A DNA stretch of 64,000 nucleotides, taken from the NCBI GenBank assembly GCA_030913385.1, contig CP133159.1:1944584-2008583 (forward strand), in the 5' to 3' direction. Position numbers and translations under genes: made by a program. Of the stretch, positions 5,332 through 44,582 are shown one piece after another; within the stretch, counting starts at the first letter, position 1, and every line of letters starts with the position of its first letter. The notes under the pieces were generated by a model. The model saw only the letters and a program-made list of their open reading frames with translations. It ran no database searches and was not told where the DNA came from. This DNA comes from Cytophagaceae bacterium ABcell3 (lineage in GTDB: Bacteria > Bacteroidota > Bacteroidia > Cytophagales > Cytophagaceae).

Positions 5332-6438
5332 ATGAAATTACGAGCTTCTTACCAGAAATATAATCTAAAGTTTAAATTTGATGCAGGTACCTCAAGAGGG
5401 GTCTTGAAGGATAAAAATACTTGGTTTGTTAAACTGTACCATCCTGAAAACCCCGAGGTGTTTGGGTTCGGAGAGGCTGGACCATTGAAGGGGTTGAGTG
5501 TAGATGATAGGCCAGACTTTGAGACGCAGTTGTCAACTATTTGCCAGTTGATTAACGAAGGCCAACCTTTGCCATCTATTAATTTCAATGAGTTCCCTTC
5601 TATCGCATTTGCTTTGGAAACAGCCCTTGCTGATTTGGAAAACGGAGGTAAGAAAACGATTGTTGATACTTCTTTTTCTCAAGGGAAAGAAGGTATACCT
5701 ATCAATGGCCTGATATGGATGGGGGCGGAGGAGTTTATGGCTGAACAGCTAAAGGACAAGCTGGCACAGGGGTATGCATGTATAAAAATTAAAATTGGGG
5801 CTATTGATTTTGAAGCTGAATGCCGCCTTCTTCAGTTTATACGATCTCAGTATTCTGCCCGTGAGATGGAAATTCGAGTTGATGCCAATGGAGCCTTTGA
5901 TCCGGATGATGCATTGAAAAAGCTGGATCGACTGGCTGTCTATGACCTCCACTCTATAGAACAGCCTATCAAGCAAGGACAGTTTGAGAAAATGCACGAA
6001 GTGTGTAAACATTCACCTGTGCCCGTAGCGCTTGACGAGGAACTTATAGGCATGGCTGGGAGGGAGGAAGAGGTGTTGGATAGAATAAGGCCTCAGTTTA
6101 TTATTCTTAAACCTACCTTGTTAGGAGGAATGCAGGCATCTGAAACTTGGATCAGTTGCGCCGAGAAATTCGGTATAGGTTGGTGGATTACTTCTGCTTT
6201 AGAGTCCAATATTGGCTTAAATGCCATTGCTCAATTTACTTCTCAGTTTAATGTGGAAATGCCTCAGGGCCTTGGGACGGGGCAACTTTATCACAACAAT
6301 ATTCCTTCTCCACTGGTTATTCAAACAGGGAAGCTTCTTTACAAAGCTAACCACATGTGGGATGTTGGATTTTTAAAGAAAGGGTGGTGTTGTGATGAAG
6401 TACACGTTGATAACCGGAGCGAGCAGAGGGATAGGTGA
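5332..6438 (+). CDS. menC: o-Succinylbenzoate synthase
   Basis: MenC dehydrates SHCHC to o-succinylbenzoate in menaquinone synthesis. The 368-residue protein has the enolase-superfamily layout: an N-terminal capping domain (FGFGEAGPLKG), then a barrel with KIKIG (Lys152, Lys154), metal ligands Asp184 (VDANG), Glu210 (IEQPI) and Asp235 (LDEEL), and the second base Lys260 (LKPTLLGG), followed by TSALESNIGLNA. ATG at 5332 is preferred over an in-frame GTG at 5308, because that GTG lies inside the inserted element's terminal repeat. The 3' end overlaps the next SDR gene by 44 bp, which extends MenC by about 20 residues past the usual end. Confidence 0.92.
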   Translation: MKLRASYQKYNLKFKFDAGTSRGVLKDKNTWFVKLYHPENPEVFGFGEAGPLKGLSVDDRPDFETQLSTICQLINEGQPLPSINFNEFPSIAFALETALADLENGGKKTIVDTSFSQGKEGIPINGLIWMGAEEFMAEQLKDKLAQGYACIKIKIGAIDFEAECRLLQFIRSQYSAREMEIRVDANGAFDPDDALKKLDRLAVYDLHSIEQPIKQGQFEKMHEVCKHSPVPVALDEELIGMAGREEEVLDRIRPQFIILKPTLLGGMQASETWISCAEKFGIGWWITSALESNIGLNAIAQFTSQFNVEMPQGLGTGQLYHNNIPSPLVIQTGKLLYKANHMWDVGFLKKGWCCDEVHVDNRSEQRDR

Positions 6439-7183
6439 GGCAATAGCAAGATATTGTGCATCGGCAAATATGAATCTCATATTGGTGGCAAGGTCGGCAG
6501 AGGCTCTGGAAAAAGTGTCCAAGGAAATTGTGGATGAACACCAGGTTGATATTAAAACTTTTGCCGCAGACCTTACCTCCCCAGGACGTGTAAAAGACCT
6601 ATTCCATTGGTGCAAAGCTCAGGATTATGATGTGAATATGCTGGTCAACAATGCAGGTGTAGCCTGTTATGGTAAATTTGATGACCTTTCATACGATGAA
6701 CAAATGTCTGTGGTAAACCTAAACATCAATACCACAGTAAATCTCACCTATACGTTCCTGCCAATGCTTAAAGAACAGGGTCGGGCTTATATTTTAAATA
6801 TGGCTAGTACGGCATGTTACCAAGCAATTCCTTATATGAGCGTTTATGCGGCTACTCAGGCCTTTCTGCAGTCTTTTAGTTTAGGTATTCGTAATGAGTT
6901 AAAAGGGGAAAATGTATATGTTTCTTGTGTTTGCCCTGGGCCTACAGCAACCGATTTTTTCGAAAAATCTGGATTAGCTGGTTTGCCGGTTAACTCTAAG
7001 GAGGTTAAAATGTCGCCAGAAGAAGTCGCAGAAACTGCCATTCAAGGAACCTTAGAGAAAGTTGCTGAAATTGTTCCCGGTACTAGTAATACGCTTGGAG
7101 CTTATTTTAGTAAGCTATTTCCAAATAAATGGGTGGTAAAAATGGTAGAAAACTATTTTCACCCAAAGGTTTCTACGGTTTAA
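6395..7183 (+). CDS. SDR-family protein (YqjQ/DltE-like) with Lys-to-Gln change in YxxxK
   Basis: 262 residues: LITGASRGIG near the N-terminus, LVNNAGVA, NMASTA with the catalytic Ser, then YAATQ where Tyr151 is present but the catalytic Lys is Gln155. The closest relatives by pattern are the DltE/YqjQ group (VSCVCPGPTATDFF, C-terminal amphipathic tail FPNKWVVKMVENYF). Loss of the Lys would be expected to lower classical reductase activity. ATG 6395 lies within the menC 3' end (44-bp overlap), so the two are translated from one message. Downstream the gene is followed directly by a hairpin repeat (7184) and a strong terminator (7268). Confidence 0.82.
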   Translation: MKYTLITGASRGIGEAIARYCASANMNLILVARSAEALEKVSKEIVDEHQVDIKTFAADLTSPGRVKDLFHWCKAQDYDVNMLVNNAGVACYGKFDDLSYDEQMSVVNLNINTTVNLTYTFLPMLKEQGRAYILNMASTACYQAIPYMSVYAATQAFLQSFSLGIRNELKGENVYVSCVCPGPTATDFFEKSGLAGLPVNSKEVKMSPEEVAETAIQGTLEKVAEIVPGTSNTLGAYFSKLFPNKWVVKMVENYFHPKVSTV

Positions 7184-7247
7184 CCTAAAATTATGCGATG
7201 GATTTCATCACTTAATAGAAAGTTCTAATGCATATTTCAGGTTTAGG
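7184..7247 (-). repeat. Dispersed hairpin repeat, short copy (R1)
   Basis: Starts right after the SDR stop codon and is bounded by CCTAAA and TTTAGG. Read on the minus strand it contains CTGAAATATGCATTAGAAC followed by TTTCTATT and ends with ATCGCATAATTTTAGG, the two ends of the longer copies at 21769 and 22660 joined without most of the interior. It can fold on itself, TATGC pairing with GCATA. Confidence 0.7.
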
Positions 7248-8476: not shown

Positions 8477-8507
8477 ATAGCGGTTAATTTAAAAATAAAT
8501 AAAAAAA

Positions 8508-8924
8508 CGAATGCAGGCCTATAAGCCGGGTTCTGTCTGCCGCCGAAGCGGAAGTCTTATCATTTATCTAGCCCCCGAATCACTTCGGGGTTCTAACGAC
8601 CTACCCTCCCCACTATTTCATTGAAGAACTCAGGACGAGCAGCCCTGTCTACACCGGCAAAACCGGTCGAAAGTGGGGTTTATTTGGTCTTTCAACCCAT
8701 AAGGTTTACCCCAATGGCCCGTCACCGGGACCACGAGTGAGCTCTTACCTCACTTTTTCACCCTTACCTCCTCATTGCTGAGGGTGGCGGTTATTTTCTG
8801 TGGCACTGGCTGTATCCCGTTAAAAACGGAACCCTTCCCGTTAGGAAGTATGGTGCTCTGCGTTGCCCGGACTTTCCTCTCCGGCAAATATTATGCCGCA
8901 GCGATAAGACGGCCTGCATTCGTT
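8508..8924 (-). ncRNA. rnpB: RNase P RNA, bacterial class A
   Basis: Read on the minus strand, the 5' end CGAATGCAGGCC pairs with the 3' end GGCCTGCATTCG (helix P1). Shortly after the start comes the universal GAGGAAAGTCCGGGC block, and near the 3' end the ATAGAACCCGGCTTATAG-type segment is seen, both diagnostic of bacterial RNase P RNA. The length of about 417 nt fits class A. A TATATTTA box, one base off TAnnTTTG, lies just upstream at 8928-8935. A T-rich tract follows the 3' end and precedes the response regulator gene. Confidence 0.95.
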
Positions 8925-13711: not shown

Positions 13712-13747
13712 TTTTGCAGGTTGTTAAGGATGTAGCTTGGATAAGCT

Positions 13748-13822
13748 ATTTATGCAATAGAACTTTCTATTTTGTAGCAAAGAAATAAAAATAAGTCGCT
13801 AAGCACCCACGCATTTGATAGA
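13748..13822 (+). repeat. Dispersed repeat, degenerate partial copy (R2)
   Basis: The stretch TATGCAATAGAACTTTCTAT, then GTAGCAAAG, AAGTCGCTAAGC and CGCATTTG, follows the order of the left half of the copies at 21769 and 22660. The right end is not recognisable. It lies 36 bp behind the yidD stop codon. Confidence 0.55.
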
Positions 13823-13842
13823 TGAGAATTTTTTATTTAAGC

Positions 13843-13887
13843 ACAAAAAAAGGGAAGAACGCGATTATGCCGTTCCTCCCCTTTTTG
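13843..13887. terminator. Bidirectional intrinsic terminator
   Basis: A stem between AAAAAAAGGGAAGAACG and CGTTCCTCCCCTTTTT with A- and T-runs on both sides. It lies between convergent yidD and lgt and can end both transcripts. Confidence 0.85.
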
Positions 13888-13904
13888 CATTTAGTTGTTT
13901 CTAG

Positions 13905-20898: not shown

Positions 20899-21768
20899 AT
20901 GCTGCTTATGAACCAAACCATCCTATGTACCGCCGATTTTACTGACTACTCATCTAAAGTTGTACAGTATGCAAGTGATTTAGCTTTGTCATTAAATGCA
21001 GATTTATTGCTATATCACAGTTCCTATGTGCCCGTTACTGTTTCTGGTGCAGAATTTCCAGATGGAAAAAAGAAGGCATTTAAAGGGAGCCATGAGATAC
21101 AGGAACAGTTAATCGACTTGTGTAACAGCCTTAAGGCTGAGGCAAAACGGAAAGGAAAATCCAGTAAATGTGATTATATAAAAGATGAGGGTTTTAATAT
21201 AGGGGGTATTAATGAGGTTGTTCAGCAGAGGCGGGTGAGCTTGATTATTACAGGAGCGCCTTCAGCAAATACATCTGCTGGAGAAGGGGTTTTTTCTGGC
21301 GATACTGTTTTGTCTCTTTTGGAAAATTCTGAATGCCCTGTGTTGGTCTTACCTGTTGATAGTACTTTGCCAAAAGTAAACAAAGTTGTTTATTCGATTG
21401 ATATTTCTGGATTTAAATTCCAAACTATTAATCAAACCTTGGACTTGTTAAAACCCCTTAGACCTGATATTTCTTTCTTGTATTTTACCGAAGAGGCTGA
21501 TTCTAAAGAAATAGCTAAATTTGATGCTGCAAAGACGGCTATTTTGGAAAATATATATTATGAAAATACGCAGTTTAGGCTTATTACGGCTTCTAACCTG
21601 ATAAAAGGCCTTAATGAGTATGCCGATAAAAACCAGGCAGACATGGTGGTAATGGCTACTTATAAGCGGAACTTGTTGGATAAACTGGTTATCAATAAAA
21701 GTCATACCAAAAAGATGGTACAGTCTTTAAGAGTGCCTGTACTTATTATGAAGGGGCAGCATTATTAA
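20899..21768 (+). CDS. Universal stress protein with two Usp domains
   Basis: 289 residues made of two UspA-like domains in tandem. The first spans about 1-150 (QTILCTADFTDYSSKVVQYASDLA; ending in LLENSECPVLVLPVD), the second about 155-289 (VVYSIDISGFKFQTI; ADMVVMATYKRNLLDKLVINKSHTKKMV; RVPVLIMKG). Tandem Usp proteins are common in Bacteroidota. The ATP-binding GxxGx(9)GS motif is only weakly kept, so nucleotide binding is uncertain. A second Met four codons in (20908) is an alternative start. A dispersed repeat begins right behind the stop codon. Confidence 0.88.
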   Translation: MLLMNQTILCTADFTDYSSKVVQYASDLALSLNADLLLYHSSYVPVTVSGAEFPDGKKKAFKGSHEIQEQLIDLCNSLKAEAKRKGKSSKCDYIKDEGFNIGGINEVVQQRRVSLIITGAPSANTSAGEGVFSGDTVLSLLENSECPVLVLPVDSTLPKVNKVVYSIDISGFKFQTINQTLDLLKPLRPDISFLYFTEEADSKEIAKFDAAKTAILENIYYENTQFRLITASNLIKGLNEYADKNQADMVVMATYKRNLLDKLVINKSHTKKMVQSLRVPVLIMKGQHY

Positions 21769-21934
21769 ACCTGAAATATTCATTAGAACTTTCTATTGTG
21801 TGGCAAAATAACTTCAAATCAGACGCTTCGCTCGCATTTGGCTTTAACCATAGAACCACTATTTTTTGCAAGCCAATACGCTGATCTTTTGTTCCTTTGC
21901 CCCTCATAACGAAATCTAATGCATAATCCTGGTT
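21769..21934 (+). repeat. Dispersed repeat, long copy (R3)
   Basis: Begins one base behind the usp stop codon. Outer ends are imperfect inverted repeats: AACCTGAAATATTCATTAGA on the left and, read inward, AACCAGGATTATGCATTAGA on the right (16 of 20 identical). The interior holds ACTTTCTATT, AAAATAACTTCAAATCAG, CGCTTCGCTC and TTTGTTCCTTTG, shared in order with the copy at 22660. No reading frame is present. Confidence 0.75.
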
Positions 21935-21977
21935 AAAGCCTTATATTTACAGTTCGGTTCTATTACTTTTTCATATT

Positions 21978-22009
21978 GACAGTGTCATTTTTGGTGCTGT
22001 CTTTTTTTT
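21978..22009 (+). terminator. Intrinsic terminator after usp and repeat R3
   Basis: GACAG and CTGTC form a short stem around a 14-base loop followed by eight T. The rest of the 345-bp gap from 21769 to 22113 holds only this and the repeat. Confidence 0.6.
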
Positions 22010-22113
22010 GTTATATTTTTCATTAGTTTTGTTATAGGAAAATACCTCGCAATCTTGTGGTAGCTTTTTCGTATCTTTAATTATATTTCCTGTTTAATTG
22101 TAAATGTTTTATT

Positions 22114-22653
22114 ATGAGTAAATTAAGATTGATTGTTTTTTGTTTAGCCGCTTCACTGATGATTTTTTCATGTAAAAAAGATGAAGAGGAACCTGAGGAC
22201 AAGCCGGCAACAGAGGAAGAAAATGGAAATGGGGGAGAGAACGGTGAAGGTAATGGTGAGAACGGTGATGACAATGGCGAAAATGGAGAAAGCTCTATAT
22301 CCAGCAAAGAGCAAATCTATGGTCGGTGGGTATATGAGGAAGTGAAAATTGATGGAGAAGATCAGAATGTGCCTGAAGACGAGCCTGGTCGAATTCATTT
22401 TAAAGATGATATGACTGTAGAGGTTGAAAACTATTATTATATGGGCAATACAGTAGACGCAGATGGTACCTGGTCTTTTGATGAGGGGAGTTCAGCTATT
22501 ACAGTGGTAGCAACAGTTGAAAACCCCCAATTTGGGTCAATGGATGTTACTCTGGTGTTTTCTATAGTTGATTCTGGTGCTGATTTTATGTTGCTTGAAC
22601 ACAGAAATCCAGAAGGTCATGATATGGAAATTCGCATGGTGCGTGCAGATTGA
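22114..22653 (+). CDS. Lipoprotein with Gly/Glu/Asn linker and lipocalin-like C-terminal domain
   Basis: 179 residues. The signal peptide ends in the lipobox SLMIFSCKK with Cys20. Residues about 23-65 are a low-complexity acidic linker (repeats of NGEN, GENG, DNGE), which would hold the globular part away from the membrane. The C-terminal 110 residues (IYGRWVYEEVKIDGE, IHFKDDMTVEVE, GTWSFDEGSSAITVV) resemble the short lipocalin-like domains of Bacteroidota surface lipoproteins. Function unknown. It is flanked on both sides by copies of the same dispersed repeat (21769 and 22660). Confidence 0.8.
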   Translation: MSKLRLIVFCLAASLMIFSCKKDEEEPEDKPATEEENGNGGENGEGNGENGDDNGENGESSISSKEQIYGRWVYEEVKIDGEDQNVPEDEPGRIHFKDDMTVEVENYYYMGNTVDADGTWSFDEGSSAITVVATVENPQFGSMDVTLVFSIVDSGADFMLLEHRNPEGHDMEIRMVRAD

Positions 22654-22659
22654 TACTTT

Positions 22660-22807
22660 AAACTGAAATATGCAATAGGACTTTCTATTAGGTAGGAAAA
22701 TAACTTTAAATCAGTCGCTTCGCTCATATTGGTGTCTTAACCATAGGAAAAAGCCGATTTATTGTCATTTTGTTCCTTGTGACAAAATCTATCGCATAAT
22801 TTAGCTT
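22660..22807 (+). repeat. Dispersed repeat, long copy (R4)
   Basis: Begins seven bases behind the lipoprotein stop codon. It matches R3 along its length: CTGAAATATGCAATAGGAC, TTTCTATT, AAAATAACTTTAAATCAG, CGCTTCGCTC, CTTAACCATAG, TTTGTTCCTTGTG and the end AAATCTATCGCATAATTT. The ends are again imperfect inverted repeats. Confidence 0.75.
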
Positions 22808-22812
22808 TACTG

Positions 22813-42672: not shown

Positions 42673-44582
42673 GTGTGCCGTGCATGGTAACTAACTAGGT
42701 GGTGAAAGTCCACTGTGGGGGTTTGTAATCGCCAACCACTAGCCAATAGCAAGGGTGTCCACTGTGAAGTGGAATCTGAAGGAAGCTGGCGGCAAAACTC
42801 TGCCCCGAGGAACACGAACCTTATCAGGCATAACCGGTGGGATGAGACTACCAAACAAGTCGAAGTCCAAAGATTACACGGACATCGGAATGTAAATGAG
42901 GCGGGGACATGGAGAGAAAGTGAGTTGCCTTACCACGGGAGGTCTCATGGACGTGCGGAAACAGAGTAAGAAGCACGGAGTAAAGCTTGCCATGAGAAGT
43001 CAGCCGAAGCCATAGTACCAGATAACGACTAGATCTGGGAAGGGCTGAACTTTAAGGAGTGAGAAGTGAATGAATGTTACCGCATGAAAGGAAGAAAGCA
43101 GAATATCTTTGAAGAAAAGACCTGCCCACAAAAGAATAGGACGGCATCCGAAGGATATGTGGGAGGGCAGACTTTCATGTGGATAACTGAAAACAACCTC
43201 ACGGATACTAATCGATTAGGGTATGGACTGTTAGAGTTTGTTCTGTCGCCATCCAACCTGAACGCAGCCTATAAACAGGTAAAGCGCAACAAAGGAGCAG
43301 GAGGTGTTGATGAGATGGAAGTCGAATCCCTCAAAGGTTATCTTGTCGCAAACAAGGACGAACTGGTAACATCCATATTGCAGGGCAAGTACCGCCCCAA
43401 TCCTGTCCGCAGGGTAGAAATACCTAAGGACAACGGACAAAAGCGACAATTGGGCATACCCACGGTAGTGGACAGAGTAATTCAACAAGCAATTGCCCAG
43501 TCACTTATCCCCCTCTACGAACCCCAATTCAGCGACCACAGTTATGGGTTTAGGCCAAAGCGCAACGCCCACCAGGCTCTAGAAAAGTGTAGAAGCTATA
43601 TCACAGAGGGCTACGTTTACGCAGTCGATTTGGACTTGGAGAAGTTCTTCGATAAGGTGAACCATAGCAAACTGATAGAAGTACTTTCGCGCACAATCAA
43701 GGACGGACGGGTAGTATCGCTGATACACAAATACCTGAACGCCGGAGTGCAGGTAGGGGGAAGCTTTGAGACCAGTGAAATGGGAGTGCCTCAAGGAGGC
43801 CCTCTAAGCCCCTTGTTGAGTAATATTATGCTCAATGAGCTGGACGGTGAGCTGGAACGAAGGGGGCACAAGTTTGTACGTTACGCAGATGACATGGTTA
43901 TCTGGTGCAGGAGCAAGCGAAGTGCAGAACGTGTAAAGAGGTCGCTAATCTGCTTCATAGAAGATAAGCTGTTCCTGAAAGTGAACAAGGAGAAAAGCCA
44001 AACCGTTCCTATATCCAAGGTCAAATTCCTTGGCTATTCGTTTTATAAAACGAAGGGGGTAGGTCGGTTGCGTATACACCCAAAAAGTGTATTGAAGATG
44101 AAAGTGAAACTAAAAGAACTGACATCACGCAGCAACGGCTGGGGAAATGCACGTAGGAAGGAAAAGCTTCGCCAATACATTGTCGGCTGGGTGGGCTACT
44201 TTAAACTGGCAGATATGCAAAGCCTGTTACTAAGGATAGATGAATGGTACAGGAGGAGAATCAGAATGGTTATCTGGAAACAGTGGAAACGGGTGAAAAC
44301 CAAACTGAGGAATCTTGTTAAGCTTGGTGTTAATAAATTCAAAGCTTTAGAGTGGGCAAACACGAGGAAAGGCTATTGGCATATAGCCAATAGCTTTATC
44401 CTTAATACCACTATCACCATAGATAGACTTAGACAGGCAGGCTATATATTCCTGTCAGACTACTACCAAAAGGTTAGGGTCAAAACTTAAGGAACCGCCC
44501 TGTACCGAACGGTACGCAAGGTGGTGTGAGAGGTCGGAAAATAAAATAGGAGGAAAACTATTTTATTTTCCTCCTACTCGAT
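42673..44582 (+). mobile_element. Complete group IIC intron
   Basis: The 5' end GTGTGCCGTGCATGG and internal GGAATCTGAAGGAAGC and GAGGAACACGAAC blocks follow the known group IIC RNA (as in the Oceanobacillus intron). The 3' part has domain V (ACCGCC ... GTACC-GAAC-GGTAC ... GGTGGT, about 44492-44527) and GTGAGAGGTC. Domain VI has a 14-bp stem of GGAAAATAAAATAG and CTATTTTATTTTCC and ends ...CTACTCGAT, with a candidate bulged branch-point A seven bases from the end. Domain IV encodes the maturase at 43066-44490. All parts look intact. Exact ends are estimated to within a few bases. Confidence 0.92.
43066..44490 (+). CDS. ltrA: Group IIC intron-encoded reverse transcriptase/maturase
   Basis: 474 residues. 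Reverse transcriptase blocks: RNKGAGGVDEM, KRQLGIPTVVDRVIQQAIAQ, SYGFRPKRNAHQAL, DLDLEKFFDKVNH, GVPQGGPLSPLLSNIMLNELD, and the catalytic FVRYADDM with Tyr273-Ala-Asp275-Asp276. The maturase X domain follows (LRQYIVGWVGYFKLADMQ) and the C-terminus IWKQWKRVKTKLRNLVKLG, WANTRKGYWHIANS is typical of class C proteins. There is no HNH endonuclease domain. It helps its intron splice and copies it at new sites. The first 40 residues are less conserved, so a later start (for example Met 41, MWITENN) is possible. Confidence 0.95.
   Translation: MNECYRMKGRKQNIFEEKTCPQKNRTASEGYVGGQTFMWITENNLTDTNRLGYGLLEFVLSPSNLNAAYKQVKRNKGAGGVDEMEVESLKGYLVANKDELVTSILQGKYRPNPVRRVEIPKDNGQKRQLGIPTVVDRVIQQAIAQSLIPLYEPQFSDHSYGFRPKRNAHQALEKCRSYITEGYVYAVDLDLEKFFDKVNHSKLIEVLSRTIKDGRVVSLIHKYLNAGVQVGGSFETSEMGVPQGGPLSPLLSNIMLNELDGELERRGHKFVRYADDMVIWCRSKRSAERVKRSLICFIEDKLFLKVNKEKSQTVPISKVKFLGYSFYKTKGVGRLRIHPKSVLKMKVKLKELTSRSNGWGNARRKEKLRQYIVGWVGYFKLADMQSLLLRIDEWYRRRIRMVIWKQWKRVKTKLRNLVKLGVNKFKALEWANTRKGYWHIANSFILNTTITIDRLRQAGYIFLSDYYQKVRVKT

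Follow-up and report, generated by a model that had tools for sequence, protein, structure and literature searches.

A palindromic miniature element of Bacteroidota linked by its ends to IS1380 insertion sequences

The repeats dispersed through the chromosome of Cytophagaceae bacterium ABcell3, hereafter the host, are best explained as copies of a miniature element (MITE) that lacks a transposase gene, measures about 167-170 bp, forms a palindrome over its whole length, and is moved now or was formerly moved in trans by IS1380-family transposases. We put the probability of this reading at roughly 85%. Judging from the shared ends and flanks, an IS1380 transposase would bind the ends common to its own insertion sequence and the MITE, mobilise the MITE and join it to TTNAA targets, and where such a target bears a stop codon, the interrupted gene would still end in an intact stop. 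The long palindrome would be kept by selection on moving copies, with no job at resident sites, and would aid synapsis either by forming a hairpin or cruciform or by offering paired sub-terminal transposase sites. In the host, the helper has apparently been lost and the copies are now decaying.

The window, by which we mean the whole stretch of 64,000 nucleotides that was analysed, contains four copies of the element, R1 to R4, listed here with the target copies that border them:

7179-7183: left target of R1, TTTAA, containing the stop TAA (7181-7183) of ORF 6392-7183
7184-7241 (core, by eye), minus strand: R1, internally deleted, both ends kept (model match 7098-7243 minus, E 2.4e-5)
7242-7246: right target of R1, TTTAG, 4/5 identical to the left copy
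13743-13900, plus strand: R2, decayed, with a clear left arm only (about 13749-13800; model match E 1.1e-4)
21765-21769: left target copy of R3, TTAAA, holding the stop TAA (21766-21768) of ORF 20899-21768 (sequence and ORF list)
21768-21934, plus strand: R3, full-length element, subtype B, AACCTGAAATATTCATTAG ... TAATGCATAATCCTGGTT (model match E 9.2e-35; alignment A1)
21933-21937: right target copy of R3, TTAAA, 5/5 identical to the left (sequence)
22657-22661 and 22806-22810: target copies of R4, TTTAA and TTTAC (4/5; sequence)
22660-22807, plus strand: R4, subtype A, part of the centre deleted (model match E 3e-29)

The original prediction had described these repeats as one dispersed family, and all four do match a single family model; moreover, a 23-mer common to them occurs four times at up to 3 mismatches, against 0.01 expected. 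R1 had been read as two ends joined without the centre and R2 as a decayed left half, which agrees with what the model finds. R3 and R4 had been said to share their whole length: both indeed run end to end on the model, but R4 has lost part of its centre. Similarly, the claim that copies begin just after a stop codon holds for R4, whose left target starts 4 bases past a TGA stop (22651-22653), but R1 and R3 differ in having the stop within the duplicated target itself.

A profile search over the genome had been set beforehand as the test of the family, and it returned further copies with conserved ends and non-random placement. With a model derived from an alignment of 29 host copies (A1), the host chromosome (5.115 Mb) contains at least 150 copies, every one of the 150 candidates scored, of 2816, being a match. 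The left end alone gives 188 host matches at up to 3 mismatches, compared with 0 for a reversed-pattern control. Full copies start with AACCTGAA and finish with TTCAGGTT, and they form two host subtypes, A (CAATAG) and B (CATTAG), with 13-15% and 6-7% substitution from consensus, respectively. From the 150 matches, 147 were fetched, and 33 of these were without a clear end, leaving 114 copies for use; the decay tests rely on the 95 that passed a length limit (41 of subtype A, 46 of subtype B and 8 of neither). Three copies of equal score are found inside 13 kb of the chromosome (4722504, 4726843 and 4735240; L161, L064), which suggests that they are part of a larger duplicated unit.

The flanks of the copies follow the pattern TTWAA/CC...GG/TTWAA, with slashes marking the borders of the element. 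A 5-bp TTNAA duplication matches on both sides of 49 of the 114 host copies, whereas 22.5 would be expected and 2000 re-pairings reached 36 at most. Among copies from contigs of named genomes, a set that overlaps in part with the copies of our order-wide search, 44 of 67 have matching 5-bp flanks (22.5 expected, maximum 33). The order-wide search itself supplied 70 foreign copies, one of them without a flank, and in the remaining 69 the inner 3 bp match in 53 cases compared with 27.2 expected. When the 114 host and 69 foreign copies are pooled, 88 of 183 match over 5 bp (40.7 expected) and 111 of 183 over the inner 3 bp (58.6 expected). Variant flanks are also found, and since they occur as matching pairs (TTGAA/TTGAA, TTCAA/TTCAA, CTAAA/CTAAA), they argue for a true duplication and not for a motif alone. 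The higher match rate over the inner 3 bp is expected if each base decays; alternatively, the duplication may be a 3-bp TNA within a TTNAA target.

The proposed source of transposase is IS1380, as insertion sequences of this family have the ends and the 5-bp target duplication seen in the MITE; 5-bp direct repeats are described for its member IS1247 (PMC3281130), and the family has been described as distantly related to piggyBac (PMC10140906). Unlike the MITE, these elements are autonomous, 1.4-1.7 kb long and equipped with one transposase gene, and only the outer 20 bp are common to both. Within the order, genome G300, attributed to Algoriphagus algorifonticola hg1, carries a 1407-bp insertion sequence, complete at four contig ends, in an assembly whose contigs break at the element ends. 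Two of these contig ends show the left flanks TTAAA and TTGAA and two show the right flanks TTAAA and TTGAA, so that at least two copies must be present; the target duplications TTAAA and TTGAA rest on the pairing of separate contigs. The insertion sequence has the ends AACCTTGATTATGCAATAGG and AACCCGAATTATGCATTAG, and its 440-aa frame, intact at all four contig ends, encodes an IS1380-family transposase (NF033539 transpos_IS1380, 260 bits with a cut-off of 180; PF13701). When it is compared with the MITE, the outer 20 bp alone align above chance, at 90-95% identity. The same genome gives 52 end matches (25 + 27, MITE and insertion sequence ends pooled), the control giving 1 and 0, and its MITE copies have a median identity of 0.959 (n = 7 sampled, minimum 0.734) compared with 0.778 for the 95 host copies. 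Thus, most of the sampled copies are recent, which fits the presence of a helper.

A second IS1380, with the target duplication TTTAA, was found by protein similarity in a genome of the host's own family (G018); its ends have 4/19 and 2/19 mismatches to the nearest motif used. In addition, G115 contains remnants that also carry the end. Five genomes exceed the IS1380 cut-off, and matching ends are clear in G300 and G018 and partial in G052; G224 and G270, with transposases over the cut-off, show no such ends. In the host genome we found no IS1380 transposase. Helper and MITE do not co-occur above expectation among the 390 genomes of the order, of which 5 are over the IS1380 cut-off and 34 have the MITE, G300 alone having both; with a weak IS1380 threshold, 63 of the 390 genomes qualify, and 4 of these are among the 34.

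The 34 genomes with homologous elements, the host counted, belong to 15 of 129 genera, and because at most 7 candidates were scored per genome in this order-wide model search, copy numbers outside the host are lower bounds. Among 29 copies measured, 25 are 167-170 bp long. No match came from any of the other 18 genomes in the host's family; the genomes searched included no second one from the host's genus, and no relative was seen with an empty site. An exact end, ACCCGAAATATGCATTAGA, is present in 81 stretches of named genomes, with the right end lying 50-260 bp from the end match in 67 of 82 cases. The genera involved (80 of the 81 stretches) are Algoriphagus, Cecembia, Cyclobacterium, Rhodonellum, Labilibacter, Draconibacterium, Carboxylicivirga, Galbibacter, Maribacter, Aureispira and others, and the end is also found in Saprospiraceae. 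It therefore spans four orders, represented by Algoriphagus (Cytophagales), Labilibacter (Marinilabiliales), Galbibacter (Flavobacteriales) and Aureispira (Saprospirales). One exact-end match, in a Nitratifractor MAG, is perhaps a binning error. The exact 27-mer of the host subtypes has no match in the contigs of named genomes, where the host's own records may have been left out; the end pattern has none in viral contigs, and one Algoriphagus copy used as query has none in plasmids. Two genomes, G339 and G065 (L195, L199), share a copy with near-identical 12-bp flanks, and this insertion may predate their split. In several foreign copies (L341, L355, L384, L395, L399 and others) the hairpin is interrupted at recurring spots by palindromes that are short and GC-rich (CCGCCGCGGCGGAC or CCTGCCGGCTGGCAGG, for example), suggesting that another small family of repeats may land in the MITE.

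The interior hairpin covaries between lineages while the resident host copies decay almost neutrally. Our alignment of divergent elements (A2) comprises 43 copies, of which 36 come from 38 non-redundant foreign copies (drawn from the 70) and 7 from the host. Its structure has 46 pairs in five helices, with 87.0% of cells paired compared with 75.4% after shuffling, and the outermost helix, which pairs columns 1-20 with 166-185 in 88.7% of cells, bears out the terminal inverted repeats noticed at the outset. Changes on both sides affect 36 of the 46 pairs (20.9 shuffled) and 241 cells (85.2 +/- 8.0 shuffled); none of 500 shuffles reaches the observed values, and sliding the structure by 1-3 columns lowers the paired cells to 28-40%. 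As the structure was derived from the same sequences, it is favoured in this test. A partial check on copies of other orders gave 84.8% of cells paired, against 76.5% shuffled (maximum 78.4%); the 19 copies used were those assigned to other orders, from record titles, among the 43 of 67 named-genome copies within 165-175 nt. In these other-order copies, several pairs in helices 2, 3 and 4 are swapped for other Watson-Crick pairs.

Within the host, the substitution rates at paired and unpaired positions are 0.128 and 0.153 for subtype A and 0.060 and 0.069 for subtype B, and RNAalifold recovers only 4 pairs from the 29 host copies of A1. Complementary double changes are not in clear excess in subtype B (5, with 3.2 expected; P 0.2). 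Subtype A does have an excess, 29 compared with 17.1 expected (P 0.0015), of which 16 fall into four recurrent states, probably reflecting subfamily history, and 13 are single. These observations bear on the strongest of the rival explanations, in which the two arms are kept complementary by template-switch correction during replication, a mutational process rather than selection on moving copies. In its favour, nearly all compensated pairs are of the Watson-Crick type and few are wobble pairs, and the excess in subtype A also points in this direction; against this, subtype B shows little of it. We consider this explanation unlikely, and in any case it would account for the hairpin alone and leave the identity of the element as a MITE untouched. 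It is tempting to speculate further, with the odds against us, that transposition makes functional use of the whole 170-bp hairpin and not of the ends alone. The folded interior would then be recognised by, or would help, IS1380 transposases, with covariation arising on passage between lineages and decay setting in once copies are stranded; combined with preferential landing on stop codons, this would make the MITE a phylum-wide element specialised for harmless insertion. The comparison of covariation between lineages with decay at resident sites distinguishes selection on movement from selection for a benefit to the host, which is in question for many palindromic repeats.

The placement of the copies was analysed on empty sites made in silico by removing the element, with TTNAA sites of the same regions as controls. 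Stop codons had been singled out in the original prediction, and a genuine excess exists there: in the host, overlap with a native stop codon is seen at 16 of 97 intergenic-or-stop sites compared with 37 of 713 controls (P 1.9e-4), and in other genomes 28 of 100 sites do so compared with 44 of 744 controls (P 4e-10). When the other genomes were re-run in element orientation, 26 of 96 intergenic-or-stop sites were at a stop (112 contexts in all), while a distance measure places 18 of 112 host copies at stops compared with 30 of 1280 control sites. Gene interiors are depleted, with 17 of 114 host sites in predicted ORFs against 2305 of 3024 controls, and 14 of 114 sites against 1819 of 2566 controls in other genomes. 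Within 10 bp of a start codon we found 2 of 114 copies and 110 of 1980 controls (P 0.09). There is a simple reason for repeats to sit on stop codons: the targets TTAAA, TTTAA and TTGAA contain TAA or TGA, so the duplication restores the stop and the gene stays intact. The cause of the excess may be either this tolerance alone or tolerance together with a target preference. The prediction had offered two roles for this placement, and the second, insertion of a miniature element at such places, is the one favoured by the terminal inverted repeats, the target duplication, the insertion sequence sharing the ends and the stop-codon excess itself.

The first role, at mRNA 3' ends, is not borne out. 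Here the element would be a functional RNA whose transcribed hairpin stabilises or terminates mRNAs and is for that reason kept at stops. Strong folds (in a single Algoriphagus copy, z scores of -7.1 for one strand and -7.8 for the other), the covariation across lineages and the excess at stop codons would all fit, but the copies show no consistent orientation bias relative to neighbouring genes. Between co-directional genes 31 have the same and 32 the opposite orientation, between convergent genes the counts are 14 and 11, and the copies at stop codons are oriented with and against the gene in 4 and 12 cases in the host and in 16 and 10 elsewhere. Nor do the host copies conserve their pairing, and copies at stop codons have no clearly better folds than other intergenic copies, being slightly worse in the host (P 0.2) and slightly better elsewhere (P 0.065). 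On the plus strand, changes to G.T are no commoner than changes to A.C, with 159 and 182 single changes in the host and 44 and 92 mismatch cells in A2. The preponderance of A.C over G.T in A2, a twofold bias of a kind absent among host copies, implies that the minus strand makes the better RNA fold, and in the one copy folded it reaches -63.3 compared with -53.1 kcal/mol. Finally, Rfam 15 has no relevant match to the window at the gathering threshold, nor to any of six foreign loci with an E limit of 1. We therefore regard an RNA role as the reason for these repeats as improbable; an effect on mRNA after insertion is possible.

Other enzymes could in principle have moved the MITE. One candidate is a different DDE family, either IS982 or an IS5/IS1031-type group, the latter following a 3-bp TNA duplication rule. 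The more frequent matching of the inner 3 bp would suit that rule, and the sole IS982-type match of the host starts with ACCTGA, as the MITE does:

L169:1421-2450, about 3521814-3522843: single IS982-type element of the host, with a transposase spread over two ORFs, ends ACCTGAGTTCGA and flanking duplication TTCTA

The ends of this element diverge from those of the MITE beyond the 6 bp ACCTGA and its duplication is TTCTA, and we reject IS982 as the helper. IS982-derived MITEs are described from the same phylum (PMC9769881), but the ends of IS1380 share about 20 bp as well as TTNAA with the MITE, making another DDE family a very improbable source. Of 22 DDE_Tnp_1 loci in the host, 12 were checked (an 8-copy group of 526-aa frames lies outside these), and none is bracketed by element ends. 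Least credible, to the point that we give it almost no weight, is the idea that the repeats are REP/BIME-like and owe their movement to a REP-associated tyrosine (Y1) transposase: the host has 6 Y1_Tnp matches and the element is palindromic and mostly intergenic, but it has a target duplication, which to our knowledge Y1 enzymes do not make, it measures about 170 bp compared with 20-40 bp for REP, and none of the 6 Y1 loci (3.2-3.3 kb each) is bracketed by its ends. An ordinary copy of the element lies about 1.1 kb from one Y1 gene.

Bacterial MITEs, as far as we know, have mostly been reported from single species, genera or families, and in this one length, ends and interior fold are conserved over several Bacteroidota orders. 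The bcr1 repeat of Bacillus cereus is mobile, and we know of no helper that it has in common with the MITE. It is described as 147-167 bp long (PMC2267715), and is a similar-sized repeat with a conserved fold in another phylum. MITEAba12, described from Acinetobacter and other Moraxellaceae (PMC6382973), spans a whole family and resembles our element in its wide spread, but it also belongs to another phylum. Compared by description, YPAL or RU-2 of Yersinia, a palindrome of about 168 bp (PMC2229807), is like the MITE in its near-equal length, palindromic and intergenic nature, target duplications and link to upstream genes; unlike it, YPAL has no terminal inverted repeat at the very termini and makes 3-26 bp duplications at dyad targets. 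Within the phylum, MITECca01 of Cardinium, IS982-derived and about 240 bp long with 169 copies, is presented in its description as coming from one strain only (PMC9769881). It is likewise short, high-copy and mostly intergenic, with ends copied from a parental insertion sequence; in contrast, the parent proposed here is IS1380, the interior is palindromic and several orders are involved.

MITEs and IS1380 were known already, as were IS982-type MITEs in this phylum, and what appears to be new is a palindromic repeat family tied to IS1380. Neither this element nor a bacterial IS1380 MITE is among the literature matches listed, which is weak evidence of novelty since most subscription journals lie outside the search, and the main text of a 2024 review of prokaryotic MITEs contains neither IS1380 nor words beginning 'Bacteroid' (PMC10969869). 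As for the rest of the window, a bacterial class A RNase P RNA lies at 8506-8920 (minus strand; Rfam search), and group II intron domains (Rfam RF02001 and RF01998) are found at 42758-43045, upstream of ORF 43066-44490.
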